Source: Gammaproteobacteria bacterium (GTDB lineage: Bacteria > Pseudomonadota > Gammaproteobacteria > Pseudomonadales > Cellvibrionaceae). From it: a stretch of 64,000 nucleotides of DNA. Both the position numbers and the translations under genes were made by a program. Shown here piece after piece: positions 3,337-58,980 of the stretch. Under the pieces are notes generated by a model. The model did not search any database. It was not told the origin of the DNA and was given only the letters and a program-made list of their open reading frames with translations. Location of the stretch: NCBI GenBank assembly GCA_004173475.1, contig SEBU01000004.1, positions 62,001 through 126,000 on the forward strand. Direction: 5' to 3'. Numbering within the stretch: position 1 is the stretch's first letter; each line of letters starts with the position of its first letter.

Positions 3337-3631
3337 ATCATTCCCGCAGCTTTAAAATAAGTAGGAAAAACATACGTCCTGCCAATAAAAAAGCAAACGG
3401 TTCAAATTCGCAATTCATTTTTATTTCATGCTCAGGTTGTCACAAGAAAAATAATCTTTGTAAATTGATTAGGTGATGCGCTTGCGTATTTTAGGAATGC
3501 GTTTTGAATAATTAAGGAGAATATTTTCTCCGGACCACTCAGCGCAACCAAGTCAAAATGTAGAGAAATGGTCAAACATTTGGTAATTAGTAATTGCATT
3601 TTATTAAATGATTTTATGTGAGGGTGTTATT

Positions 3632-5515: not shown

Positions 5516-6313
5516 ATGACCATCGAACCAAAGCCTCTTCGTCCCGGATGGTTTAAACGGGCTGCAGTCAATAGCATCAGATTATCTAAAAGAAAGCCGA
5601 TACTTTGGTTTTTAATTTATTTTTGTTTGCCTGTGCTTACCTATTTTTTGCCATACATGAATATCGCCGTTTTTGCTGCAGCATGTATGGTCGTATTTGG
5701 GACATTTTTAGCATTTAATGCCGATGAAAAAAACACTTGGAGGTTTGAAGATTTTTTATTAATTCTTTGGCGAAGGCCTTCATTAATAACTGTTTCATTG
5801 TTTTGTATTATTTTCCCAGGCGGATCGTCCGGGTTGTTGCAGCTCTCGTTCACCTCACCGTTACAGACCTTTTTTGTTTTTGGCGTGAACGCTATGGTAG
5901 CGCTGTGTGTTGCTTTTGTATTTGCGCCTTTTATCATAATGCTGTTCATTGATTTTCCTACGCTGTTTTTAAAGCGATTTAAAACGCGAAAACTTTCAAA
6001 GGCCGATAGTGAGGAATATTTCCGAGACTACGTCCCTCTGGGAGAAATTAGGATATTTTCATTGCATCTAAGTGTTGATACAAATCTAAAATGGAATGAG
6101 ATTAGCCATCTTTCTGATCAAGGGAAACGAAATATAACGGGCCGCGAGCAATTAATATTGGCGGTTTTGTTACTGTTATCGATGCTGTCGCCAATCGTAC
6201 TGGGTCTCGTCATACCATTCTTCTATTGTGTGTATAAGGAACTATTTTTCCAAAAAGGTATTTGCGAAAAGCGCGAAGCACGCAAAACGTCAGCAGTCCA
6301 TGCGTGCCAGTAA
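5516..6313 (+). CDS. Integral membrane protein, paralogue of the gene at 24821-25597
   Basis: 265 aa with about five hydrophobic segments (roughly 29-50, 52-68, 82-107, 112-150, 215-243). It is clearly homologous end to end to the minus-strand protein at 24821-25597: both open M-T-[IF]-E-P-K-[PA]-L, share 'PVLTYF[L]PY', 'FGT[FL]L', a central 'LHL[SC]VDT' and end with 'PFFY..Y[KR]ELF[FW]Q'. Its function is not recognised. AAAGGCGAG ribosome site. Confidence 0.8.
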   Translation: MTIEPKPLRPGWFKRAAVNSIRLSKRKPILWFLIYFCLPVLTYFLPYMNIAVFAAACMVVFGTFLAFNADEKNTWRFEDFLLILWRRPSLITVSLFCIIFPGGSSGLLQLSFTSPLQTFFVFGVNAMVALCVAFVFAPFIIMLFIDFPTLFLKRFKTRKLSKADSEEYFRDYVPLGEIRIFSLHLSVDTNLKWNEISHLSDQGKRNITGREQLILAVLLLLSMLSPIVLGLVIPFFYCVYKELFFQKGICEKREARKTSAVHACQ

Positions 6314-13281: not shown

Positions 13282-13341
13282 ATGATCCGTGACGAAGTGG
13301 GTCTATACGAAGATAATGAGTTGGATTGGTCTGGAGGGTAA
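13282..13341 (+). CDS. Tiny ORF (19 aa), first cistron of the array
   Basis: ATG after an ACGAGGC; encodes MIRDEVGLYEDNELDWSGG and stops eight bases before the next ATG. Its stop region carries the next gene's GGAGGG. It may be a leader peptide or the first of the small-gene series. Support is context only. Confidence 0.3.
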   Translation: MIRDEVGLYEDNELDWSGG

Positions 13342-13348
13342 TTGAACT

Positions 13349-13465
13349 ATGAGCGTATTAACTGAAAAAGATCACGACAACCTGGATTGCTATTTATCGG
13401 CGTTGTTGGATGCTTACAAACATGGCCAAATTGATAAGTCTAGGGCGCATTTTTTTGATTTTTAA
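13349..13465 (+). CDS. Small protein (38 aa)
   Basis: Preceded by GGAGGG. The sequence has a helix 'YLSALLDAYKHGQIDKSRA', a pattern seen in many short proteobacterial proteins of unknown role (LLxxYxxGxIxxxxA). The TAA overlaps the AAGGAG of the next gene, so the genes are packed. It may be a truncated relative of such proteins. Confidence 0.45.
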   Translation: MSVLTEKDHDNLDCYLSALLDAYKHGQIDKSRAHFFDF

Positions 13466-13475
13466 GGAGAATGAA

Positions 13476-13724
13476 ATGAATATAAGCAAATTTTACAAAA
13501 GTTGTGCGGAATGGTCTGGTGCATTCATCTTTCTTAGCTATTTAACGATTGTTTTTGGATTGGTTTTTAGTTTCTCGGAAGTCACCAAGGTTTCAGTGGC
13601 GTTGGTAATGGTTGGTTCAGTTTATCCATTAAGGCTATTTCTGTCGGACAAAAGTAGCTTTCCAACAGGCACTGAATACGAACTGGTAAGCTCTGCGATC
13701 ATCGCTACTCGATCAATTGATTAG
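13476..13724 (+). CDS. Small membrane protein of the array
   Basis: 82 aa with AAGGAG at 13464-13469 before ATG 13476. A longer frame from 13410 has no ribosome site. Two hydrophobic segments (about 15-33, 38-55). Its first 15 bases (ATGAATATAAGCAAA) are identical to those of the next gene. Unlike the genes after it, it has a classic Shine-Dalgarno sequence. Confidence 0.6.
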   Translation: MNISKFYKSCAEWSGAFIFLSYLTIVFGLVFSFSEVTKVSVALVMVGSVYPLRLFLSDKSSFPTGTEYELVSSAIIATRSID

Positions 13725-13735
13725 GAAATTGGATT

Positions 13736-14020
13736 ATGAATATAAGCAAAAACGATTGTGCTGATTTGGATTCCCTAGCAGTTAAAACTCATTTCTGGAA
13801 AACGTTCCTCTTTGTGATAGGAGGCGTGTTTCTAGTGATAGTTACAATTTTTCTCACCACTAAAATTGTTGTGAAATCCGCTTCAACATTTTTGTCCCTA
13901 TTTAGTTATGCTGATTCATTCTTAGCGTTATCTGCATCATTGCTGATGATGAGTTTTTACTATATTGATATTGTTAAACACGATACAGCAATTCAGCAGT
14001 TCAGGAACCGGCATCATTAA
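13736..14020 (+). CDS. Small membrane protein of the array
   Basis: 94 aa, start motif ATTGGATT directly before the ATG. Hydrophobic segments at about 20-42 and 55-76. It begins MNISK like the preceding gene (15 identical bases), then diverges completely. Not recognised. Confidence 0.6.
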   Translation: MNISKNDCADLDSLAVKTHFWKTFLFVIGGVFLVIVTIFLTTKIVVKSASTFLSLFSYADSFLALSASLLMMSFYYIDIVKHDTAIQQFRNRHH

Positions 14021-14095
14021 TACTGAAACGGCAATTAAACAATGCTGGAATTTAAGATGAAAAAGATGTCGAGCTTCGAAAAAGGTGATTGGATT

Positions 14096-14260
14096 ATGGC
14101 AATGAATTTTAGCATTGGAAATCTCTACTGGGATTGGGGCGTGACCGCGAACATTCAGATTTTAGAATGGAATCGTAGATCCTCTATGTGTAAGGCAAAG
14201 ATTGTGGAAACGGGAATAACCTATATTGCTCGTTTAGAGCATCTTGAAGCAAAACGCTGA
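14096..14260 (+). CDS. Small soluble protein of the array
   Basis: 54 aa from ATG 14096, preceded by GGTGATTGGATT. The frame is open upstream to 14042 but the array motif marks 14096 as the likely start. Tryptophan-rich, beta-like (IGNLYWDWGVTANIQILEW). Stops one base before the next motif. Confidence 0.5.
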   Translation: MAMNFSIGNLYWDWGVTANIQILEWNRRSSMCKAKIVETGITYIARLEHLEAKR

Positions 14261-14269
14261 GATTGGATT

Positions 14270-14533
14270 ATGATAGAAAACGTCGGGACAATTTTATTCA
14301 TCGCTGTAATGGCTGTTTTGCTATTGCGTCCTTTAGATACCTTTTACAAGGCGGAATTGATAAAAGAAGCAGCAGATGATAACGAAGCCAAAAAGCTTGT
14401 GTCGGACTTTCAAAATTCGGAAAGACCTACATGTTTTAAAGCTACCTTTTTATTGAAAAAAATCAAAGCACTAAAAAATAGAAATTTGGTTAAGAAGTAT
14501 GATGCGCGGTCTACAGACGAAGACTCACAATAA
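14270..14533 (+). CDS. Small single-pass membrane protein of the array
   Basis: 87 aa after ATTGGATT. An N-terminal hydrophobic helix (about 7-21) is followed by a charged helical cytosolic part. Not recognised. Confidence 0.6.
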   Translation: MIENVGTILFIAVMAVLLLRPLDTFYKAELIKEAADDNEAKKLVSDFQNSERPTCFKATFLLKKIKALKNRNLVKKYDARSTDEDSQ

Positions 14534-14561
14534 CCTTGTAATGTTAATGGATAATTGGAAT

Positions 14562-14666
14562 ATGACCGCGGATAAAAATGAAGTACTTAGCCGTGTCCGA
14601 ATTCTGATTGACGGTGGAATTGGAAACGTCTGTTTTGAAGGAATTAAATTATTACCGCAAGAGTAG
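14562..14666 (+). CDS. Tiny ORF (34 aa) of the array
   Basis: ATG after ATTGGAAT. Encodes a 34-residue peptide with a helical start (DKNEVLSRVRILIDGG). Its end overlaps another open frame (14648-14839) that has no start codon, so this may be the intact 5' end of a frameshifted gene. Confidence 0.4.
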   Translation: MTADKNEVLSRVRILIDGGIGNVCFEGIKLLPQE

Positions 14667-14839
14667 GCATTGTATCTAATTTACTTTCGTGCGGGTCAGC
14701 ACAAATTCAAGGTGATAATGAGCAAGACCTGAAAGGTGAAAGATCGCTCTGCGAAGCAATTTTGCACAAGAGTGCAACCTGTAAATTTGTAGTAAAAACA
14801 TCGAACAGTGAAATGTCCTTTTATATTCGAGAGGGTTAA
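14648..14839 (+). pseudogene. Open frame without a start codon, probable 3' remnant of an array gene
   Basis: 63 codons open after a TAA at 14645-14647, with no ATG, GTG or TTG near its beginning. The TAA lies one base before the next start motif (GTTGGAAT), as for genuine array genes. The composition looks coding (KGERSLCEAILHKSATCKF). Joining it to the 34-aa ORF would need a frameshift near 14640-14660. Confidence 0.35.
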
Positions 14840-14848
14840 GGTTGGAAT

Positions 14849-15181
14849 ATGTTGCCAGAAGAAATTACTAAGGCATTTACTGGTTTAATGTCAGGGTTGG
14901 ATAACTCTAATGCTGAATTCAAATCATATTATGCAGATTTGATCGAGCAAGCTGCAAGTATGGACGACTTAAGCTTATTGTGAGCAGCAGAAGTAGCAGA
15001 GAAGTTTGAGAAAGACTTCACGATGTTTTGTGACAACTTTCCTTGTCATTTTGTAAGTTTTTTTAATGATGGTGACATAAAGAAAAATTCTCTTCAGCTA
15101 GCTAAACTTGATCGTGAGGCAAGAAGATCAGTTTTACTAGAGATTGCAAAACACGTCAGAAATTCGCACTTTGGCTTTTAG
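14849..15181 (+). pseudogene. Array gene interrupted by one in-frame TGA
   Basis: ATG after GTTGGAAT opens a 110-codon frame. A TGA at 14981-14983 (codon 45) splits it into a 44-residue and a 65-residue part; both look coding and helical (EEITKAFTGLMSGLD before, AAEVAEKFEKDFTMF after). The final TAG sits just before the next ATTGGA motif. Either a nonsense mutation, a sequencing error or a recoded stop. A TGG to TGA change would explain it. No selenocysteine hairpin was evident to me. Confidence 0.6.
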
Positions 15182-15191
15182 AGATTGGAGT

Positions 15192-15257
15192 ATGGGCATA
15201 CTTGCATTTATATTTTTTGCAGGACTTTCACAATATCTTTACCGAAATTGGCAATAA
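15192..15257 (+). CDS. 21-aa hydrophobic peptide of the array
   Basis: ATG after ATTGGAGT. Encodes MGILAFIFFAGLSQYLYRNWQ, one short membrane helix. It could be a small membrane peptide in its own right. Evidence is the start motif and the hydrophobic composition. Confidence 0.4.
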   Translation: MGILAFIFFAGLSQYLYRNWQ

Positions 15258-15275
15258 TTAAAATCAGGAAATATC

Positions 15276-15698
15276 ATGGATCACAAACAAAGGTTGCTTG
15301 AGCTTCGTAGGCTTGGCACATTAATCAAGATCTACTCAAATTTTAAATATCCCTCAGTTATTTTGAATCATAAGGGAAACGTGACTATTTTGTCGTTCAC
15401 CTTAATCGGACTATTGTTTTCGTTTGTGGATTACGGAATTCTTTTAGGCGTGATTGCATATTTCCTATTAGCATTCATCACCCCTAAACAATCTTTTAAC
15501 GAACGTGCTTTTAAAATTTTGGCCGGTTATGAACCAATATTGCAGTTCGAGTATGAGTCATTTTTACATAAGATAAAAAATGACTCAGCTACTTATAATG
15601 ATTTATTGCTGTGGATGGCTGGAGAATCCAAGTGTCTTAAACAAGTGCCGGAAAGTGAAGCCTTAGCAAAGGCAGAATTATTAAGCAAACTTAAATAG
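15276..15698 (+). CDS. Two-pass membrane protein of the array
   Basis: 140 aa, with AGGAAA upstream rather than the array motif. Hydrophobic helices at about 38-52 and 54-70, then a charged helical tail of 70 residues. Not recognised. Confidence 0.65.
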   Translation: MDHKQRLLELRRLGTLIKIYSNFKYPSVILNHKGNVTILSFTLIGLLFSFVDYGILLGVIAYFLLAFITPKQSFNERAFKILAGYEPILQFEYESFLHKIKNDSATYNDLLLWMAGESKCLKQVPESEALAKAELLSKLK

Positions 15699-15793
15699 CA
15701 TCGGGAAAAGGGGTGATTGGAATATGCCACTTTGCATTATCCAAACCCTATGAGAATATTAGAAATAATATTTGTAGACAGAGGAAATCAAAC

Positions 15794-16396
15794 ATGAAAA
15801 ATGAAATAACACATCCACTTCTTAATGAATACGCGCAAGAAATATTTAAGGCAAGCTACCTGCTCGACGCTGATCACTTTATTTGGCAGCTTGGCAGAAT
15901 TTATAATTATTATGTTGGGTGGACTCTAATACTCTTTTCCCTTTTTTCCACGGCAATTTATTTTTCACCGCAAAGACCATTTAATGTCTCGTTCGTATAT
16001 TTCATTCCTCTTACAGTTCTAGCTACTTACTTATCATCCGCTTTGCTTTTTGACAAAGTAATTAGCATTTCAAAAAAAAAATTACTTGCACAGTTTAATG
16101 CTGAAAAGCGTGAAAAACTTGCCAAAAGTCTTAGAGATTATTCAGCCAATATCGGATCATTAATTGTTTCTCACTATCGCGATGATTTCGAAAAAAATAA
16201 CATTACAGAGGCAAAAGCTCTTATCTCCGGAGATGATGAAAAGGTTATAGTTGCAATAGCATATGCGCTTTCAAATCGATATCACTCCATAACTGACTAC
16301 ATTAGGCTGTCAAAACAGTTTTACCAAATGGAAATTGACGTCGCAACTGAGCGCGCACGAGAATCTCAACTGACAGAGAAATTACAAAGCCTTTAA
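15794..16396 (+). CDS. Membrane protein of the array with long cytosolic helix
   Basis: 200 aa from ATG 15794 with AGAGGAAA at good spacing. Hydrophobic segments at about 39-58 and 67-87; residues 88-200 are charged and helical. An array motif at 15716-15723 lies further upstream, in front of a separate nine-codon ORF starting at 15724. The frame also runs upstream to a GTG at 15713. Not recognised. Confidence 0.65.
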   Translation: MKNEITHPLLNEYAQEIFKASYLLDADHFIWQLGRIYNYYVGWTLILFSLFSTAIYFSPQRPFNVSFVYFIPLTVLATYLSSALLFDKVISISKKKLLAQFNAEKREKLAKSLRDYSANIGSLIVSHYRDDFEKNNITEAKALISGDDEKVIVAIAYALSNRYHSITDYIRLSKQFYQMEIDVATERARESQLTEKLQSL

Positions 16397-16417
16397 AGAC
16401 AATTATTGGAAAAGACA

Positions 16418-16603
16418 ATGTACTATTTTGGCGAACTTGGCTATGAGGATGATGGGGAATTCAGCTCACAAACGCAGGCAGAACATGCAGCGTTGGAAAG
16501 CTCACTAGAAAAAGGTACTGTCGCTATCTCAATCTGGGATGAATTCGATGAGGTCATTGCCGTAGCTATTGACGGTGAAATTTTCGATAAGCGGAAAGAT
16601 TGA
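16418..16603 (+). CDS. Small acidic protein of the array
   Basis: 61 aa from ATG 16418 (GGA seven bases upstream); a TTG at 16406 in the same frame is possible. Very acidic (LGYEDDGEFSSQTQAEH), with a C-terminal beta hairpin pattern. Its TGA overlaps the next start motif. Confidence 0.55.
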   Translation: MYYFGELGYEDDGEFSSQTQAEHAALESSLEKGTVAISIWDEFDEVIAVAIDGEIFDKRKD

Positions 16604-16610
16604 TTGGAAA

Positions 16611-16832
16611 ATGGATAAGACTGACATCTATCTTGTGCTTTTTATGAGCGCCATATTTATCGTTGCATCGATTATTGGTGCCGATAACAATGCTAAACGT
16701 GCATTTGGAGTACTTACGGGTATTTTTATTTTTGCGGCGGCGATAGTGAAGCTGCGCCACATGACGGCAAGAGCGAGGAATACCAGTATGGATGGGGTGA
16801 TCTTTCAGAGGAAGAAAAGCTCGATAGATTAG
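16611..16832 (+). pseudogene. Array membrane protein, probably frameshifted; original frame would run to 16880
   Basis: ATG after ATTGGAAA. The first 45 residues have two hydrophobic segments (about 5-22 and 31-45). The present frame ends at 16832 with an odd basic tail. The neighbouring frame, entered near the GCG repeat at 16735-16743, encodes a convincing acidic helical tail (DLSEEEKLDRLDKEQIDAIK) and stops at the TGA just before the next motif at 16884. That is where array genes normally end, so a frameshift in the GCGGCGGCG run is likely. Confidence 0.6.
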
Positions 16833-16891
16833 ATAAGGAGCAAATTGATGCGATCAAACAATTCAAACAGAACAGGTTATGAGGTTGGAAA

Positions 16892-17734
16892 ATGGGTGAA
16901 GTTGAATCGCAGACGAACGGTGACTTGAATTTTTACAAAAACGATCGTTACCTATTCCCTGACGAAGAGTTGTTTAGTTTGAGCAGTGATGATTTACGTC
17001 GGGTTATTTTGGAAAGCCTCACTGATGCCCACGATCAAACAGATGGAACCGATTGTAACTCCGACGTCAGGATTGACTTCGCCCAGGATATTATCGAGCA
17101 AGCGCGTGACATTGTGTTAGCGCGTGGTGAGACATTTACAGCCGAAGAGAAGTGCGAGATGCATTTCCTTTCATGGCCACTCACTGAGGAAGAGATCGCG
17201 CAAGAATTCATTAAAAAAGAACAAGAGCAAGAAGCGCTGCTTCGAGTACGGGAGCGTTGGCAAAGTACAGTAGAAAAGTACACGCCATGGCTTGAAATTC
17301 TCGTCCAAGGAAAAGTGCCGCCAACTGAGGCTGACTTTTCAACTATCAAAATGAGATTAGGGGTATCTGCTTTGAGCTCCGGCGAAACGAGCCTGCCTAC
17401 CTGGACGGAAGTTCGGCGGATGAAAGAGGAGTTGCAGAGCGTAGCCAATCTGGAGGTGGAGGCACATTATTCCGGCAAATACGCAGACATGGAGAGTAAT
17501 CGATCATGCTTCTGGAGTTTTTGGTTTACGCCTCCACTATCACCTCAGGCATGGTCGTTATTGCAGAAATGGTGGAAAGAAGGCCTGTATACAAGTCAGC
17601 CAGAATTATGGGCGGACGAAGTGCATTGGACTCTTGAGTGCTGGCCTGAATGGGGATCAGAGATGCATGCGGTAGCAGAAATGGGAGATTGGATCTCGTG
17701 CATTCGGAATGATGTGGCGCGCAACAAGATCTGA
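16892..17734 (+). CDS. Largest array protein, unknown
   Basis: 280 aa, soluble, acidic, after GTTGGAAA. N-terminal part carries 'FPDEELFSLSSDDLRRVI'; the middle is a long charged helix (about 95-130, many E/Q); the C-terminal third is tryptophan-rich (WSFWF, WSLLQKWWKE, WTLECWPEW). Not recognised. Confidence 0.7.
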   Translation: MGEVESQTNGDLNFYKNDRYLFPDEELFSLSSDDLRRVILESLTDAHDQTDGTDCNSDVRIDFAQDIIEQARDIVLARGETFTAEEKCEMHFLSWPLTEEEIAQEFIKKEQEQEALLRVRERWQSTVEKYTPWLEILVQGKVPPTEADFSTIKMRLGVSALSSGETSLPTWTEVRRMKEELQSVANLEVEAHYSGKYADMESNRSCFWSFWFTPPLSPQAWSLLQKWWKEGLYTSQPELWADEVHWTLECWPEWGSEMHAVAEMGDWISCIRNDVARNKI

Positions 17735-17743
17735 GGTTGCAAA

Positions 17744-17929
17744 ATGAAACTTGAAAATTTAGAAGATGATAAAGGTTTGGTTGTTAAAGCTTTAAACGCA
17801 TTGCGGAGAAAACGAACACAGGCTTATGACAAAGCAGTGACGCTTTCCCAACTTAATAAAACTGCCCTCCCGAACGACTTCGGGGTTGCAGAGGTTGATC
17901 ACGCGCTCAGACGGATCCTTTCATCCTAG
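17744..17929 (+). CDS. Small basic protein of the array
   Basis: 61 aa, start motif variant GTTGCAAA. Reads as a small winged-helix-like fragment (LVVKALNALRRKRTQAYDKA), but too short to be sure. Stops before a further motif copy. Confidence 0.5.
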   Translation: MKLENLEDDKGLVVKALNALRRKRTQAYDKAVTLSQLNKTALPNDFGVAEVDHALRRILSS

Positions 17930-17957
17930 ACTCCACGAAGAAGGACATTGGAAAAAA

Positions 17958-17996
17958 ATGAGCAAATCAAATCTATATGCAAACGAAAGAAAATAG
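17958..17996 (+). CDS. 12-codon ORF with array motif
   Basis: ATG after ATTGGA plus a run of A. Encodes only MSKSNLYANERK. Listed because it carries the array start motif; it may be a leader or the 5' stub of a lost gene. Confidence 0.25.
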   Translation: MSKSNLYANERK

Positions 17997-18055
17997 TCAC
18001 TTAACAAATTTGAAAATAAAAGATGCTCAAGAATCGAAGTTGGAGTAATTGGAAA

Positions 18056-18184
18056 ATGAAAAAAAGACCGGTAAGCAATGTAATACCTCCTATGCCTCGC
18101 GTTGAGCAGAGCGATTTATCTCCAATACTTTTGCTCTTAGTGATTTTATTTGTTATTTCGGTATTACTTGTTAGATTAACTTAA
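18056..18184 (+). CDS. 42-aa single-pass membrane protein of the array
   Basis: ATG after ATTGGAAA. A polar N-terminus (about 22 residues) is followed by one hydrophobic helix (about 23-40, ILLLLVILFVISVLLV). Tail-anchor-like. Not recognised. Confidence 0.5.
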   Translation: MKKRPVSNVIPPMPRVEQSDLSPILLLLVILFVISVLLVRLT

Positions 18185-18209
18185 CTAACTACTTGGGACA
18201 TATTGGAAG

Positions 18210-18509
18210 ATGGAAGCCGAGCTGAAGCAGACAAAAATAATTCTACAAATCGAAATTGAGAATGGCACGAGTTGGGGCAGAGGGAAATCGCGAGCAATAG
18301 AAAGTATGGAAATTTTTCACTTATCGGAATTTTCATTTAGAAAATTGGGTGACGATGAGTATGAACTTACTTTCAAGTATGAAGATGACGCCGATCTTGA
18401 AGAACAGATATACGATCTTTACTCTGAGTTGCAAAGCAGGGCGGACGATAAAAATTGTAGTTTACAGTGCTACTTCCGAGAGATAGGCAGTGATCGCCAG
18501 TGGGATTAG
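18210..18509 (+). CDS. Last array gene, acidic soluble protein
   Basis: 99 aa after ATTGGAAG. Acidic, with a beta-rich first half and 'YELTFKYEDDADLEEQIYDL' helix. It converges on minus-strand genes; the next stop is seven bases away. Not recognised. Confidence 0.6.
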   Translation: MEAELKQTKIILQIEIENGTSWGRGKSRAIESMEIFHLSEFSFRKLGDDEYELTFKYEDDADLEEQIYDLYSELQSRADDKNCSLQCYFREIGSDRQWD

Positions 18510-18516
18510 ATGTCAA

Positions 18517-18645
18517 TCAAAAATACGGTTGAATCTCCACACAACTTTCAATTACAGCAGTCATGTCGCCATTGTTTTTATCATCATGTTTTTTTATTAG
18601 TTTTGCGTAATAACCTATTTTATTTGCGAAAGAATTTTCAAACAT
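18517..18645 (-). CDS. Small protein (42 aa) overlapping the preceding gene
   Basis: ATG at 18645 overlaps the stop of the upstream gene (ATGTTTGA), with AAGGA just before, so translation is probably coupled. Encodes a basic N-terminal helix (FANKIGYYAKLIKKHDDK) and an acidic end. Not recognised. Confidence 0.5.
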   Translation of the reverse strand: MFENSFANKIGYYAKLIKKHDDKNNGDMTAVIESCVEIQPYF

Positions 18646-24820: not shown

Positions 24821-25597
24821 TCAACTTAAGGCTGCCGGAGCGAGAGAGGCTTCTTTTGTTGACAGGCCCGATTGCCAGAATAGCTCTCGGTACAGTAAGT
24901 AAAAGAAAGGTATCAGGAAACCGCATAAGAGAGGAAATACGAATAGAAACGCGATTGGAGCAATCAAGATCATTTTCTGTGTCAGCTTCAGAACAGCCAT
25001 GCCTTTATCGCTCATGTCACATGCATCCCTCCAGCTTAAACGGGTATCGACACATAGGTGAAGTGCAAATGCAGCGAACTTCCCATTGATAGATGGTTCT
25101 ATTGAGCCATGGTCGGCTTTTCCACGAGACTTGTAAAACTTAAACAAAGTCATAGGTAGATCAAAAAAAATCAAGATTATCAGTGAGGCCAATATCACCG
25201 ATACGTAGAGGGACATAATCGCTAAACCGAAGCGGAGGAGGGCCGCAGAAGGTGACTCAAGTTGCAGCGTAGCGCTTTCAGTAAATATAAACATACTTGC
25301 AAAAGAAGCGATCAGAATTAGTATTAGCGGTTGGGGCTTGATTAGCAACAATGAAAGGTATGCGGAGAAGCCGTACCTTTGAAGATGATCGTTCGCAAAG
25401 CATAACAAAGTGCCGAATATAAGAATCAGTCCTGCAACAAAAGTTGTAAATGGGAGGTAGGGGACGTAATACGTTAGGACCGGCGCGCAGATATACAGGA
25501 CAAACCACAATAATGGTGAACGAATCGCAAGTTTTACAGCGCCAACTGAGCACCGCTTGATCCATCCTCGCTCAAGGGCTTTTGGTTCGAATGTCAC
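24821..25597 (-). CDS. Integral membrane protein, paralogue of the gene at 5516-6313
   Basis: 258 aa from a GTG start with GGAG upstream. About five hydrophobic segments. It aligns along its length with the protein at 5516-6313 (same opening, 'PVLTYYVPYLPF', 'LHLCVDTRLSWRD', 'IPFFYLLYRELF'). It lies just downstream of ssb. Function unknown. Confidence 0.8.
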   Translation of the reverse strand: MTFEPKALERGWIKRCSVGAVKLAIRSPLLWFVLYICAPVLTYYVPYLPFTTFVAGLILIFGTLLCFANDHLQRYGFSAYLSLLLIKPQPLILILIASFASMFIFTESATLQLESPSAALLRFGLAIMSLYVSVILASLIILIFFDLPMTLFKFYKSRGKADHGSIEPSINGKFAAFALHLCVDTRLSWRDACDMSDKGMAVLKLTQKMILIAPIAFLFVFPLLCGFLIPFFYLLYRELFWQSGLSTKEASLAPAALS

Positions 25598-26144: not shown

Positions 26145-26741
26145 TTAGCAATTTCGTCGTGGGCATATATCTGGGTGCCGCTGCCTATCAATTGCCTCAG
26201 CCTGACTGGACACTTGCAGTATCTCAGTAGGGTGTATATAGAGATAAGAACTTGAGATAATTACAGGTCTTACCATTGCAAGGTCACCCGGAATCGCGTA
26301 AACATTCAGTACAAGATGCATTCGTTCCGAAGCAGCAGCCTTCGACTGCCAAATTCGATAGGTCTCACACCGCTTAATATAATTTACAATCGAAGGGGCT
26401 AAACGAGGGTCGCTCTCCGCTGAAGTTCTTTGAACGTGTACATCATGTAGTATTGAAGCCAATTCTCCGGCAAGAATTTCACAGCTAACATTTTCTATGA
26501 GTTTGAGACTGTCGAAATCCGTTTGGCGTATTGTGAACAATTGCAGCGAGGAGAATCTCAAATCGTTCACGTAAGCAACATGACAATCGAACGGAGTTAA
26601 ATGGTTGAATCCTTTCAAATCCCAACCATTTGCTGATAAATGCCCATACGAAACTGACTTCGCAAAATTTACACTGTCATCATTGTTTTTCATTAAATAT
26701 AATTCCGATAGCTGGTCTATTAGCGAAGTTTTTACGCACAC
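26145..26741 (-). CDS. Unknown protein at the end of the PRTRC cassette
   Basis: 198 aa from a GTG overlapping the end of the thiF gene by 10 bases; an ATG at 26693 is an alternative. Not recognised. I looked for the JAB metalloprotease signature (HxHPxG/HSH with an aspartate) expected in PRTRC protein A and did not find it; histidines are scattered (ILHDVHVQR, YLYIHPTE). It may replace protein A in this cassette. Confidence 0.6.
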   Translation of the reverse strand: MCVKTSLIDQLSELYLMKNNDDSVNFAKSVSYGHLSANGWDLKGFNHLTPFDCHVAYVNDLRFSSLQLFTIRQTDFDSLKLIENVSCEILAGELASILHDVHVQRTSAESDPRLAPSIVNYIKRCETYRIWQSKAAASERMHLVLNVYAIPGDLAMVRPVIISSSYLYIHPTEILQVSSQAEAIDRQRHPDICPRRNC

Positions 26742-27517
26742 TCACGAAAACTTTTCCAAATTTTTTCATCAATCATTAACGGAGTTACGGTTCCGGCCTT
26801 AATGTCGATGTAGCTGCCATGGTGAGTTAGAGATCCATGACGAAGAAACTGCCAAAGCAGATTTGCCGCCTCGCGAGCAACGCTACGATTGATTCCATAA
26901 TCCTGCTTTTCGAGCGCCGCCAGAGTCGAGCATGACGGCTCATCTTTGACATCCATGCTGTCGAGAACAGGATAAAGGTCATATACATTTGGAATTCGCA
27001 GGGGTGCGTCACCAAGCAAAAAATGGCCTAATATTGTATTTCCTTGAGATGCGTCATTGCCACAATCTAACCAGAACGTTGGCGAAGGAATTGAACGAGA
27101 ATGCACTGATTTCTTAACTTGGTTCAACTTGGAAGCTTTCTTACCGAGAGCCGCTCTCACGTCTGGACTATCAACGCACGTGATGATCAAATTAAATTCT
27201 TCCACCTGTTCGATATCGAAGTCTTCATTTTGAAAACTCCACGTCGTATTACCAAAGTTATTTACTCGCGAAACTAACACCTCTGCTTTATTGAACCCAA
27301 CATCACACGGCCAAAACCGTTGGCGTCCAATGTTCGCATGGGTCACAGTTTTAGGATCAAATGCCGTTAGAACAAATCCATCACCCCCAAGTGCTATCAG
27401 TAATGAGTGGATGCGGAAAAGTTCATCGAACATTTCACTACCCGTGCCGCCACATCCAATGAGTGCGATCTTTAATTTTTTATTGAGCCACTGCTGAGGT
27501 ATTTTTAATTTATGCAT
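26732..27517 (-). CDS. PRTRC system ThiF-family (E1-like) protein
   Basis: 261 aa from ATG 27517 after AGGGG. Rossmann nucleotide-binding GCGGTGS at 21-27, then 'ANIGRQRFWPCDVGFNKAEV' as in E1/ThiF/MoeB adenylating enzymes. A conserved cysteine in DEPSCSTLAALEKQD (Cys196) is at the usual catalytic position in PRTRC ThiF proteins. It should adenylate the C-terminal glycine of a ubiquitin-like partner, here probably protein C. Overlaps gene B by eight bases. Confidence 0.93.
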   Translation of the reverse strand: MHKLKIPQQWLNKKLKIALIGCGGTGSEMFDELFRIHSLLIALGGDGFVLTAFDPKTVTHANIGRQRFWPCDVGFNKAEVLVSRVNNFGNTTWSFQNEDFDIEQVEEFNLIITCVDSPDVRAALGKKASKLNQVKKSVHSRSIPSPTFWLDCGNDASQGNTILGHFLLGDAPLRIPNVYDLYPVLDSMDVKDEPSCSTLAALEKQDYGINRSVAREAANLLWQFLRHGSLTHHGSYIDIKAGTVTPLMIDEKIWKSFRECA

Positions 27518-28253
27518 GACTATGCCCCTGAATAAAATCACGCAAGGTAATGTCAGCATTACTCATGCTACTACCGGCCAATCGCTTCGCGCTTCGTGCA
27601 CGCGTTTGTGCGTGACTCTTCCAAAACCTAAAATGCTTTTGATCGTTTGTCTTATGTCTAAAAGTTGACTCGTGATTCACATGCGTAAACTGTGAATCGA
27701 ATAAAGTCGCTTCACATTCCTCGATAGAATCCGTTGTAATTACTGCGGGTAGTGATGCAGTGCCTTGGCAAAGCAATCCGCGAGAATTTATATTCATCAG
27801 TGGCGCATTTAATAGTCGAGTGTCCATAGTGGGTCGGGAATTACTACTCAAGGCAAACACGTGCATTGATTGAGTAGTTTTAGATGCGGCAAATAAAAGT
27901 GGCGGCCACTCTACGGTCAAACACTCTGGTTTTTTGCCATGCCGAAACCACATTTCACCTACAAAGCGCTTTGTGTGCCAAACGATAAGTTCGTCCGATT
28001 CGAACAGCACTGACTGAGGGATGCAATTTATTTCCCTTTCATACTTTGCGACATTCAGTTTAGCGAAACATTTGATAATTTGAGAAGGTGAAACGATTGT
28101 TCCAATGCTCAGAGAGTTGGTATCGGGATTTATCTTATGTCGAGTCGCACACACGACATTATTGCTGCTGCCGTCTTGATAGAAAACTACTGCGAATTCT
28201 GGTTTGACTATGCTTGGCGCATATTGAGAATTCATACTGGATATAGCAACCAT
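27510..28253 (-). CDS. PRTRC system protein B (E2-like)
   Basis: 247 aa from ATG 28253 with GAGGAGG. Matches the PRTRC B pattern: 'VEWPPLLFAAS', 'VFALSSNSRPTMDTRL', 'APLMNINSRGLLCQGT' and 'DSQFTHVNHES'. The family has been grouped with bacterial E2-like folds (Prok-E2_D, from memory). Cys162 in GLLCQGT would be the candidate thioester cysteine; that is inference. Lies between F and ThiF, overlapping the latter. Confidence 0.9.
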   Translation of the reverse strand: MVAISSMNSQYAPSIVKPEFAVVFYQDGSSNNVVCATRHKINPDTNSLSIGTIVSPSQIIKCFAKLNVAKYEREINCIPQSVLFESDELIVWHTKRFVGEMWFRHGKKPECLTVEWPPLLFAASKTTQSMHVFALSSNSRPTMDTRLLNAPLMNINSRGLLCQGTASLPAVITTDSIEECEATLFDSQFTHVNHESTFRHKTNDQKHFRFWKSHAQTRARSAKRLAGSSMSNADITLRDFIQGHSHA

Positions 28254-30348: not shown

Positions 30349-32112
30349 TTATTTCAGACACTTTATGAAGTCATCAGGTGCGTACATAGACCAGTCAAAT
30401 TGCGTATTCAAAATTGCATCGATAAGATCTGTCTTTGGCTTCTTCGCGATTTTATCGAATGCGTTTTCACCATTCAGAGAGTTAAAATGATTTTCAAAAC
30501 CTGACGTTTTTGCGATACCAATCAGCCCTTGTTTTAGATATGCGTTGAGATTCTCCTTAGTGGGCGACCAACCACTGACAGCTATCGCATTGCCGCTAAC
30601 GTCTAACGACAAAGCATTAATTAACAGTGCTCGCGGGTCAGTCGACATGTTTTTGCTATCTTTCAAATACATTGAGTAACACAGCGTTTTCAATTGATTT
30701 AGTTTCTCGGAGGTCAATGCAAAAAGGTCAATCACTCTCTTGTTAAACGAAGTTGATATTTCTGTAGTTACGACTGATTTGAACAAAGTATTGGCCTCTG
30801 ATGAAAAGCCAGCATGGTCTATAAGAGCAGAAACGCAAACGGCTTCCATGAAATGCGAATTTGTATCGAAGTGCGAAGCCGCCAATGAGCGAAGTAAAGA
30901 TTTATTATTCTCCAAAACTGCTGCGGTCGTGGTTTGAGTTACAACGTTTTCTTTCAGCGTATGTTTGGTTGCTTTGTTTACGCTAGCCACTTTGGTTGGC
31001 GTATTCTTGCTGACATCTTTAGAAACATTTTTAGCATCTGCACTCTCAGATATTTGCTGAGCAGAAAATGCGACTTTCATTTTTCTAAAACAGTCCGTAT
31101 CGATACACTGGTTGTGAACAACCTCCCCAGCGTTCGAATTGATTCCATCCGTTAAGATTACAACATTGCTAAGACAACCCGTGCACCCGCCAATAAATTG
31201 CCCTGACCCAACAATCTCCTCGTTCACTGTATTTCTATCTGATAGAGGCTTTTCTATTGCCATTAGTACAACACCAAACTGCTCCTCAAGTTCTGATTTC
31301 TTAAGTGCTAATGCGATGTCAGTTTTTTCCTTGAAACAGGGGAGATTATTGCACTTCGCTTTTCCTACCGTATTCACAAAAATATCGGCTTGAACGTCGC
31401 TGTTGTGTGGGCAGCCTGCACAACTGGAAACATCAAAAATTGCAGTACGAAGATTTCTATTTGCGCGACCAGCACGTTCTTTTAAATATTCAATACTCCA
31501 TTTCTCGGAAATTATTGTGGCGAGAGTTCCGTCTTGTAAAGTTGGCACGAAGGCAGACAGAATTTCTGCGTGTCCGATTTTAATTAAATCCTGTCGCAAT
31601 GCGTCCCGCACAGTCTCCGTGCATTGATTTAGCAGCAGCCTGCCTCTAAGTTTATTGACCGACCAATTCAAAGCATTAGCAGCGGCTTCGTAATCAGAGT
31701 TGTAGTAACTAACAAATTTTTGAGCAGCAACAATTTCATCTGCGATTGAAAGTTTTTCTCTCGCAAAGTTTTCGGTCATCATCATGCCGTAGGATTGTCG
31801 ATCATCGGCGACTTTGAACACCGCAGGAATGTCGATGTAACCATCCAAATTAGAAGCTTCAACTCTGCCATAACCGGCTATCAATTGTAGTCGGGTCGGG
31901 TCGTCAGGATTAATTCTGACGGTTACTCCCTGAGTAACTCCGTTTGCGGACTTGATTGCGGCTCGAAGCTCTTTGAAGGCTTCAGGGTCACGGCTGGATC
32001 TGACATTTCCCCAAGGCACGGGGTCAATGTCTTTTAGAGGGGCGCGGAAAGCGTCTCCATCCTTGAGCAATGAGTAGTTGATAGTTGGATTGAAAGTTTG
32101 TTGTGCGTTCAT
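30349..32112 (-). CDS. PRTRC system ParB-family protein
   Basis: 587 aa. N-terminal ParB/Srx-type domain (about 35-130) with 'LIAGYGRVEASNLDG' in place of GERR and 'ENFAREKLSIADEIVAA', then an HTH region (about 140-200). A cysteine cluster (CAGCPHNSD ... CNNLPCF ... CTGCLSN ... CIDTDCF, about 255-370) suggests zinc or metal binding. Much larger than the partition ParB at the left end. First gene of the cassette. Confidence 0.9.
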   Translation of the reverse strand: MNAQQTFNPTINYSLLKDGDAFRAPLKDIDPVPWGNVRSSRDPEAFKELRAAIKSANGVTQGVTVRINPDDPTRLQLIAGYGRVEASNLDGYIDIPAVFKVADDRQSYGMMMTENFAREKLSIADEIVAAQKFVSYYNSDYEAAANALNWSVNKLRGRLLLNQCTETVRDALRQDLIKIGHAEILSAFVPTLQDGTLATIISEKWSIEYLKERAGRANRNLRTAIFDVSSCAGCPHNSDVQADIFVNTVGKAKCNNLPCFKEKTDIALALKKSELEEQFGVVLMAIEKPLSDRNTVNEEIVGSGQFIGGCTGCLSNVVILTDGINSNAGEVVHNQCIDTDCFRKMKVAFSAQQISESADAKNVSKDVSKNTPTKVASVNKATKHTLKENVVTQTTTAAVLENNKSLLRSLAASHFDTNSHFMEAVCVSALIDHAGFSSEANTLFKSVVTTEISTSFNKRVIDLFALTSEKLNQLKTLCYSMYLKDSKNMSTDPRALLINALSLDVSGNAIAVSGWSPTKENLNAYLKQGLIGIAKTSGFENHFNSLNGENAFDKIAKKPKTDLIDAILNTQFDWSMYAPDDFIKCLK

Positions 32113-58794: not shown

Positions 58795-58980
58795 TTAACG
58801 TTCTAATTCAGCTTTCTTCTCGCGCTGAATACGAAGCCAAATCTCTTCGCGATGCACGGGGACATCTTTAGGTGCATTCACACCTATCCGAACTTGGTTG
58901 CCATCTATCCCGAGCACAGTGACAGTTACGTCATCCCCGATTACCAAAGTTTCGCTCAAGCGGCGTGTCAGTATCAACAT
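58795..58980 (-). CDS. csrA: CsrA/RsmA carbon storage regulator
   Basis: 61 aa with the complete CsrA pattern: [16 protein letters not shown], '[20 protein letters not shown]' and '[14 protein letters not shown]', including the RNA-binding Leu4, Arg6, Arg7 and Arg44-type residues. It binds GGA loops near ribosome sites to repress or protect mRNAs. Plasmid-encoded copies probably alter host gene expression or control plasmid genes; the many GGA-containing start motifs at 13.7-18.2 kb are possible targets, by inference only. Confidence 0.95.

Follow-up and report, generated by a model that had tools for sequence, protein, structure and literature searches.

A short element at the start codons of small genes arranged in rows on a probable plasmid and three other replicons of the same order

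The gene row and its start motif

The DNA analysed here, hereafter the window, is a 64 kb stretch (positions 62001-126000) of contig C60 from a 4.73 Mb genome, the source of which we infer to be Cellvibrio or a close neighbour. At 13.5-18.5 kb it carries small orphan genes in a co-directional row that is probably a single polycistronic unit, and ATG codons in this row are repeatedly preceded by (A/G)TTGGA and exactly two further bases. This motif, RTTGGANNATG, was found 12 times on the two strands of the window, and 11 copies lie on the + strand within 13728-18212 (at 13728, 14088, 14262, 14554, 14841, 15184, 15716, 16603, 16884, 18048 and 18202); the twelfth (19331, - strand) heads an 8-codon frame. 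A sequence-only reading that had pointed to the row proposed a comparison with shuffled DNA. In 100 shuffles of the whole window the motif occurred 1.09 times on average and 5 times at most, against the 11 copies of the row, and it is thus not equally common at random positions. The statement that this context is not used elsewhere in the window held for ATG starts, as judged by the search of the window for RTTGGANNATG. The features of the row, followed by three genes outside it, are listed below.

13476-13724, + strand: first sizeable gene of the array, with an ordinary Shine-Dalgarno (SD) sequence (AAGGAG), a motif-free start and the motif right after its stop
13728-13738, + strand: motif ATTGGATTATG, starting a 94-aa membrane-type open reading frame (ORF), 13736-14020, with the TAG of the ORF before it at -14
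14088-14098, + strand: motif ATTGGATTATG, in frame inside ORF 14042-14260, where it also encodes DWIM; the start at 14096 is uncertain
14262-14272, + strand: motif ATTGGATTATG, starting an 87-aa ORF, 14270-14533; TGA at -12
14554-14564, + strand: motif ATTGGAATATG, starting a gene with a broken-looking frame: 34 codons, after which a different frame stays open to 14839
14841-14851, + strand: motif GTTGGAATATG, starting a frame with an in-frame TGA, 14849-15181, the two pieces of which match one plasmid protein elsewhere
15184-15194, + strand: motif ATTGGAGTATG, starting a 21-codon ORF (15192) before ORF 15276-15698, which has its own SD-like AGGA
15716-15726, + strand: motif ATTGGAATATG, starting a 9-codon ORF (15724); the membrane ORF that follows it, 15794-16396, has an SD-like GAGGA of its own
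16405-16420, + strand: near variant, ATTGGA 7 nt from the ATG of ORF 16418-16603
16603-16613, + strand: motif ATTGGAAAATG, its first base overlapping the TGA of ORF 16418-16603; starts 16611-16832, a broken-looking frame, with another frame open to 16882
16884-16894, + strand: motif GTTGGAAAATG, starting a 280-aa ORF, 16892-17734, with distant plasmid homologues
17736-17746, + strand: variant GTTGCAAAATG, starting a 61-aa ORF, 17744-17929; its homologue in genome G092 has the exact motif
17947-17960, + strand: near variant, ATTGGA 5 nt from the ATG at 17958; 12-codon frame
18048-18058, + strand: motif ATTGGAAAATG, starting a 42-aa membrane-type ORF, 18056-18184; a stop TAA overlaps
18202-18212, + strand: motif ATTGGAAGATG, starting a 99-aa ORF, 18210-18509, a stand-alone domain resembling the C-terminus of plasmid serine resolvases and tyrosine integrases
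26735-27559: ThiF
30349-32112, - strand: PRTRC ParB candidate, matching 340 plasmid records, several of those listed being named PRTRC ParB
58798-58980, - strand: plasmid-borne csrA (PF02599, 87 bits)

The three near variants described earlier were all found, the one at 17736 reading GTTGCA. The starts had also been called eleven consecutive ones; the eleven copies stand, but "consecutive" is too strong because, among 19 candidate array starts, six without the motif (15023, 15276, 15794, 16418, 17744 and 17958) lie among the 11 that have it. The frames opened by the 11 motif ATGs had a median length of 54 codons, as compared with 22 after 100 other ATGs (p=0.002). At positions -14 to -10, 8 of 12 motif ATGs (17744 included) have the stop of an open frame with 25 or more codons, but only 360 of 6549 ATGs on C60 do, in agreement with the remark that stops fall close to the next motif. 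The description of the genes as mostly membrane-type was not borne out, since a membrane-like segment was found in 7 of 17 array proteins versus 60 of 178 in the background.

The position of the motif was also evaluated by an open count, in which all 5-mers at offsets -5 to -21 before ATG were counted in 5-kb windows. TTGGA at -7 reached 10 per 5 kb in the array, while the best 5-mer elsewhere on C60 reached 5 and the best fixed-offset 5-mer in one 20-kb chromosomal stretch reached 6. TTGGA at -7 is the strongest fixed-distance start motif on this ~194 kb replicon. Among the next strongest is TTCTAC directly before ATG, with 5 copies in 5 kb at C60:57000-65000, a region reaching the window start. 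Within 13300-18520, RTTGGA occurs 22 times on the + strand and twice on the - strand, the background of C60 being ~0.66 per kb and strand. After the 14 start copies were masked, no clear excess of RTTGGA remained (7 versus 4.2 in shuffles, reached in 32 of 300), and TGGA was in excess (35 versus 24.6, reached in 5 of 300). Of 126 motif matches in the own genome, 8 chromosomal ones were inspected and 7 of these sit in open frames of at least 137 codons. Outside the window, RTTGGANN also precedes a GTG at C60:52154 (194 codons) and a TTG at C60:55831 (223 codons); both frames lie inside longer frames and may be true starts.

The array proteins are not recognisable paralogues of one another. Ten of them had no Pfam match above the curated cut-off, and the array proteins had no such match in NCBIfam, a best match of only E 0.05-0.08 in PHROGs, and one weak helix-turn-helix match (E 0.0014) with no clear defence family in PADLOC; a function did not emerge from any of these searches. 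Rfam gave no match in the window.

C60 has 194,195 nt, and it is probably a circular plasmid of ~194 kb because its last 119 nt repeat its first 119 nt. A PRTRC ParB gene and a ThiF-like gene, the pair taken as the sign of a PRTRC plasmid, are both present, as are the transfer genes TraE, TraL and TraV. A Pfam scan at E<=1e-4 covered 156 ORFs of C60 (79 + 77), a part of its 235 ORFs of at least 70 aa, and csrA was the sole translational regulator recognised among them. Elsewhere in the window, two membrane-type proteins that look alike by eye are encoded on opposite strands at 5516-6313 (+, MTIEPKPLRPGW) and 24821-25597 (-, MTFEPKALERGW), and a 464-aa protein with an exonuclease VII large-subunit domain is encoded on the plasmid at 33478-34872.

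The element on other replicons and at homologues outside the rows

The sequence-only reading had suggested looking for the motif in related DNA, and similar small-gene rows with the element were found on three other replicons of the order. C2 of G092, a 176-kb contig from another family of the order, was reached by protein homology alone, through the homologue of 17744; it has matches (E<=1e-4) to four of the C60 ORFs that are 70 aa or longer. Within 0.95 kb it carries five RTTGGA copies, all on the same strand: two before ATG, one before GTG and two without a start. L266/L317, a contig of an uncultured Cellvibrio metagenome-assembled genome, has seven small genes in a row with five exact motifs and two near variants; all seven proteins have a membrane-like segment, and one appears lipoprotein-like by reading. 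On C62 of G281, four copies (1422, 3864, 5121 and 5379) are exact, and those at 3629 and 4549 have other spacing or no start. Because L266 and G281 were found by their holding two motif copies, the independent evidence from them is limited to the additional copies, the gene starts and the stop coupling.

The 32 pooled copies (14 from C60, 7 from L266, 5 from G092 and 6 from G281) comprise 22 exact ones, one with GTG, two with one changed base, four with other spacing and three with no start within 8 nt. Their consensus is a purine-rich stretch followed by ATTGGAAWATG, with nothing clearly conserved farther out. At E<=0.01, 17744 was the only C60 array protein to match G092 C2, none matched L266 or G281 C62, and the L266 proteins matched neither G092 C2 nor G281 C62.

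Scans for two motif copies covered 144 genomes of the family, 390 genomes of the order, genome contigs and viral contigs. Six of the 144 had a match, only G000 with three; four of the 390 had a match, including one array (G281); the genome contigs gave at least 117 loci, with one array (L266) among the matches listed. In a uniform screen of 555 of the loci from these scans, L653 (G281) was the only array-like one among the 22 matches listed, and L290 and L105 were repeats. Ten loci (L115, L138, L338, L353, L355, L383, L413, L523, L544 and L620) have two copies and one stop-coupled start each, and may hide more arrays. A distant blastn search of PLSDB with the array DNA found no relatives. A search of 95 other genomes gave one 34-base match (G033) over the 16603 motif, with no array in the surrounding 3 kb, and a protein scan of genome contigs with the 280-aa protein gave 36 stretches, none of which was confirmed.

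Eleven homologues outside arrays with an equivalent start, at the same codon as the array gene or within a few residues of it, were then compared. They belong to the families of 17744 (n=6), 16892 (n=2), 14849 (n=1) and G281 5121 (n=2); the six 17744-family loci are on Enterobacteriaceae plasmids, chosen from 901 records. The motif was absent from all 11, several of which are near-identical and hence not independent cases, while the array homologue of 17744 in G092 does have it. Two further loci without the motif, L022 and L064, were left out of the count since their gene starts are not equivalent. The 18056 protein has a broken relative at C60:165221, again without the motif. As the same families occur without the element outside the arrays, the sequences compared indicate that the element is tied to the array rather than to the gene.

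The presence of one junction in four arrays, with only a single gene family common to any two of those compared, bears on the main rival explanation. According to this, the 11-mer is a DNA junction, and genes are gained, lost or swapped at RTTGGAWWATG, start codon included, by a recombinase or by slippage. The direct succession of stop codon and motif on C60 agrees with it, as does the fact that, in both the C60 and the G092 row, the first sizeable gene has the motif after its stop and not at its start. A frame of 30 codons is lacking after ten of the 32 copies, including the last copy of both the G092 and the G281 row. In addition, neighbouring C60 copies share their -2/-1 bases (17 identities versus 9.7 expected; p = 0.0003 with 12 sites, 0.0009 with 11 and 0.003 with 10), although this cline was noticed before being tested and was tested in C60 only. 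Copies lacking a credible gene and the spatial cline thus favour a copying of the junction. On the other hand, the conserved block spans only ~11 bp, beyond which there is just a purine-rich stretch; there is no inverted partner (TCCAA, 5 versus 3.8 in shuffles); and the natural start codon is retained in the homologues, so that a crossover would have had to fall on it by chance. The recombination junction proposed in the sequence-only reading therefore draws support from these copies and the likeness of neighbours and is opposed by the retained start codons, and we consider it rather unlikely. A cassette system that moves small genes between plasmids at an 11-bp junction containing the start codon, with neither attC nor a neighbouring integron integrase, seems to us less likely again.

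Small orphan genes in rows would also be expected of an integron cassette array whose attC sites (core GTTRRRY) are degenerate, and an integron-integrase-like gene lies on another contig of the genome (C2:324219-325157, 380 bits). That gene, however, is not on C60 and is interrupted by an in-frame TGA, and the only integron integrase match on C60 (44.8 bits) is below the family cut-off. Of the 11 motifs, 2 begin with G and 3 fit the core at its Y position; a stop directly adjoins the motif in 8 of 12 cases, and the inverted partner is not in excess. An integron attC array, contradicted by the mismatched core, the lack of an inverted partner and the lack of an integrase above the cut-off on the replicon, is extremely improbable.

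Ribosome binding and RNA structure at the starts

The sequence-only reading had argued that GGA two bases from ATG is too close for SD pairing. This held for the motif itself, whose GGA at -5 to -3 does not pair with the anti-SD sequence at the usual spacing, but not for the starts as a whole, since in about half of them SD-like bases lie directly upstream of the motif and provide most of the SD-like pairing. Where such bases are present, the element stands between them and the AUG. With an assumed anti-SD sequence (the 16S end pattern was not found in the assembly), the mean pairing energy was -6.2 for 12 array starts, -6.4 for 164 long ORFs and -3.4 for random ATGs, and 5 of the 12 array sites were near the random level.

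This usual mean strength of pairing, like the likeness of neighbouring copies, would be expected if the motif had no special function and were a good ribosome-binding stretch that local duplication and short gene conversions had spread and that ordinary selection for translation initiation maintained. Yet the array proteins are not recognisable paralogues, and the same 11-mer occurs on replicons that share little else. Moreover, TTGGA stands at -7 in only one of 164 long C60 ORFs, the array gene 16892, and in none of the 163 others, the starts having been chosen by a rule of our own. Plain duplication is consequently quite unlikely.

When folded, 10 of 12 sites folded less well than their own shuffles (z>0). 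This bears on the possibility that the motif is a CsrA/RsmA site and that the plasmid csrA or a chromosomal csrA represses the array through the start-codon GGA, the predicted CsrA-bound RNA being AUUGGAAAAUG. Besides its place on C60, csrA lies ~0.9 kb after the last motif gene of L266/L317. According to PMC9928087, the plasmid CsrA protein RsmQ bound GGA and AnGGA oligonucleotides and preferred hairpin loops, and RsmQ homologues were reported on 98 of 12,084 plasmids and on 41 of 196 in Pseudomonadaceae. Nevertheless, the ANGGA core is present in none of the 11 exact motifs, all of which have T two bases before GGA, and elsewhere in the array ANGGA is no more frequent than in shuffles (20 versus 24.8). 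GGA is not displayed in hairpin loops, since 10 of 12 sites are not folded and UUGGA is in a stem at 15716. All csrA matches in G092 are on C1 and none on C2, and none in G281 is on C62. The CsrA-type control suggested earlier is thus weakened despite csrA on two array contigs, and we hold it to be improbable; neither classical CsrA sites nor attC sites are supported.

Promoter-like sites are not in excess in the array (14 versus 14.9 in shuffles). A tight row with one copy for each cistron is the layout that control at the level of translation would require.

Interpretation and comparison with known systems

Among the options raised in the sequence-only reading, an unusual translation signal fits best: the starts are real, the sites are mostly unstructured, the element recurs on three other replicons and it is absent from all 11 outside homologues. 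Our tentative preference, with a likelihood somewhat short of even, is for a per-cistron translation element bound by a putative RNA-binding factor, in a layout resembling that of T4 RegA, which is the closest working model. Most cistrons would carry their own, mostly unstructured RNA element, RUUGGAWW, directly before AUG. A trans-acting factor, encoded by the host or the plasmid, would bind UUGGA over the spacer and the start codon and set the translation of the cistrons together, much like T4 RegA, which blocks the start regions of numerous mRNAs. In genes that enter the array, the element would come to stand at the natural start codon, the leader changing in place under selection for something acting at the start of each cistron. 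Such a change in place would explain most of the observations, since the homologues keep the start codon while the leader differs.

Several observations weigh against this translation element. The spatial cline of the -2/-1 bases in C60 is not predicted by a protein site, and the scan of 156 C60 ORFs (E<=1e-4) revealed no RegA-like protein. Three array genes (14562, 14849 and 16611) have broken-looking frames beside intact motifs. The ten copies that head no 30-codon frame comprise three with no start within 8 nt (G092 61965, G092 61523 and G281 4549) and seven with frames of 3-27 codons (C60 15184, 15716 and 17947; G092 61022; G281 1422, 3629 and 5379). Finally, two of the 12 sites equal or exceed the mean folding of their shuffles, and at one of these, 15716, UUGGA is paired in a stem.

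If the translational operator is true, its regulon could be searched for by one short string, giving a handle on many uncharacterised small plasmid genes. If the junction is true, it would be another way to build gene arrays, and in the case of a cassette system, any gene that joins would immediately be placed under a common translation signal. With four arrays at hand, the choice between operator and junction can be tested directly. A search of the literature on Cellvibrio small membrane proteins and on cassettes without attC gave nothing on the C60 array, and we claim nothing beyond this about its being unpublished.

The shared start signal points to a common way of controlling or assembling small genes that was not matched to a known one. 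Like integron arrays, the row combines small genes that are unrelated with a short junction that recurs between them, but the start codon lies inside the repeat and attC signs are lacking. It resembles a CsrA/RsmA regulon in having GGA beside the start codon and csrA on two of four array contigs, and differs from it in having TTGGA instead of ANGGA and in its 10 of 12 unfolded sites. In archaeal viruses, many unrelated small anti-defence genes are recognisable by one conserved upstream sequence, according to PMC11065993; there it is a promoter region, whereas here it is a start-codon element with no excess of promoters. The natural sites of T4 RegA have no clear sequence conservation, unlike the array with its exact TTGGA and fixed spacing. 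PMC3014915 describes RegA operators as overlapping AUG or lying directly 5' of it without structure, the sites being A+U-rich, and gives a consensus from systematic evolution of ligands by exponential enrichment, aaAAUUGUUAUGUAA, which contains AAUUG and UUAUG. The array site shares with RegA operators its position at or immediately before the AUG in many mRNAs and its lack of structure, seen in 10 of 12 cases.

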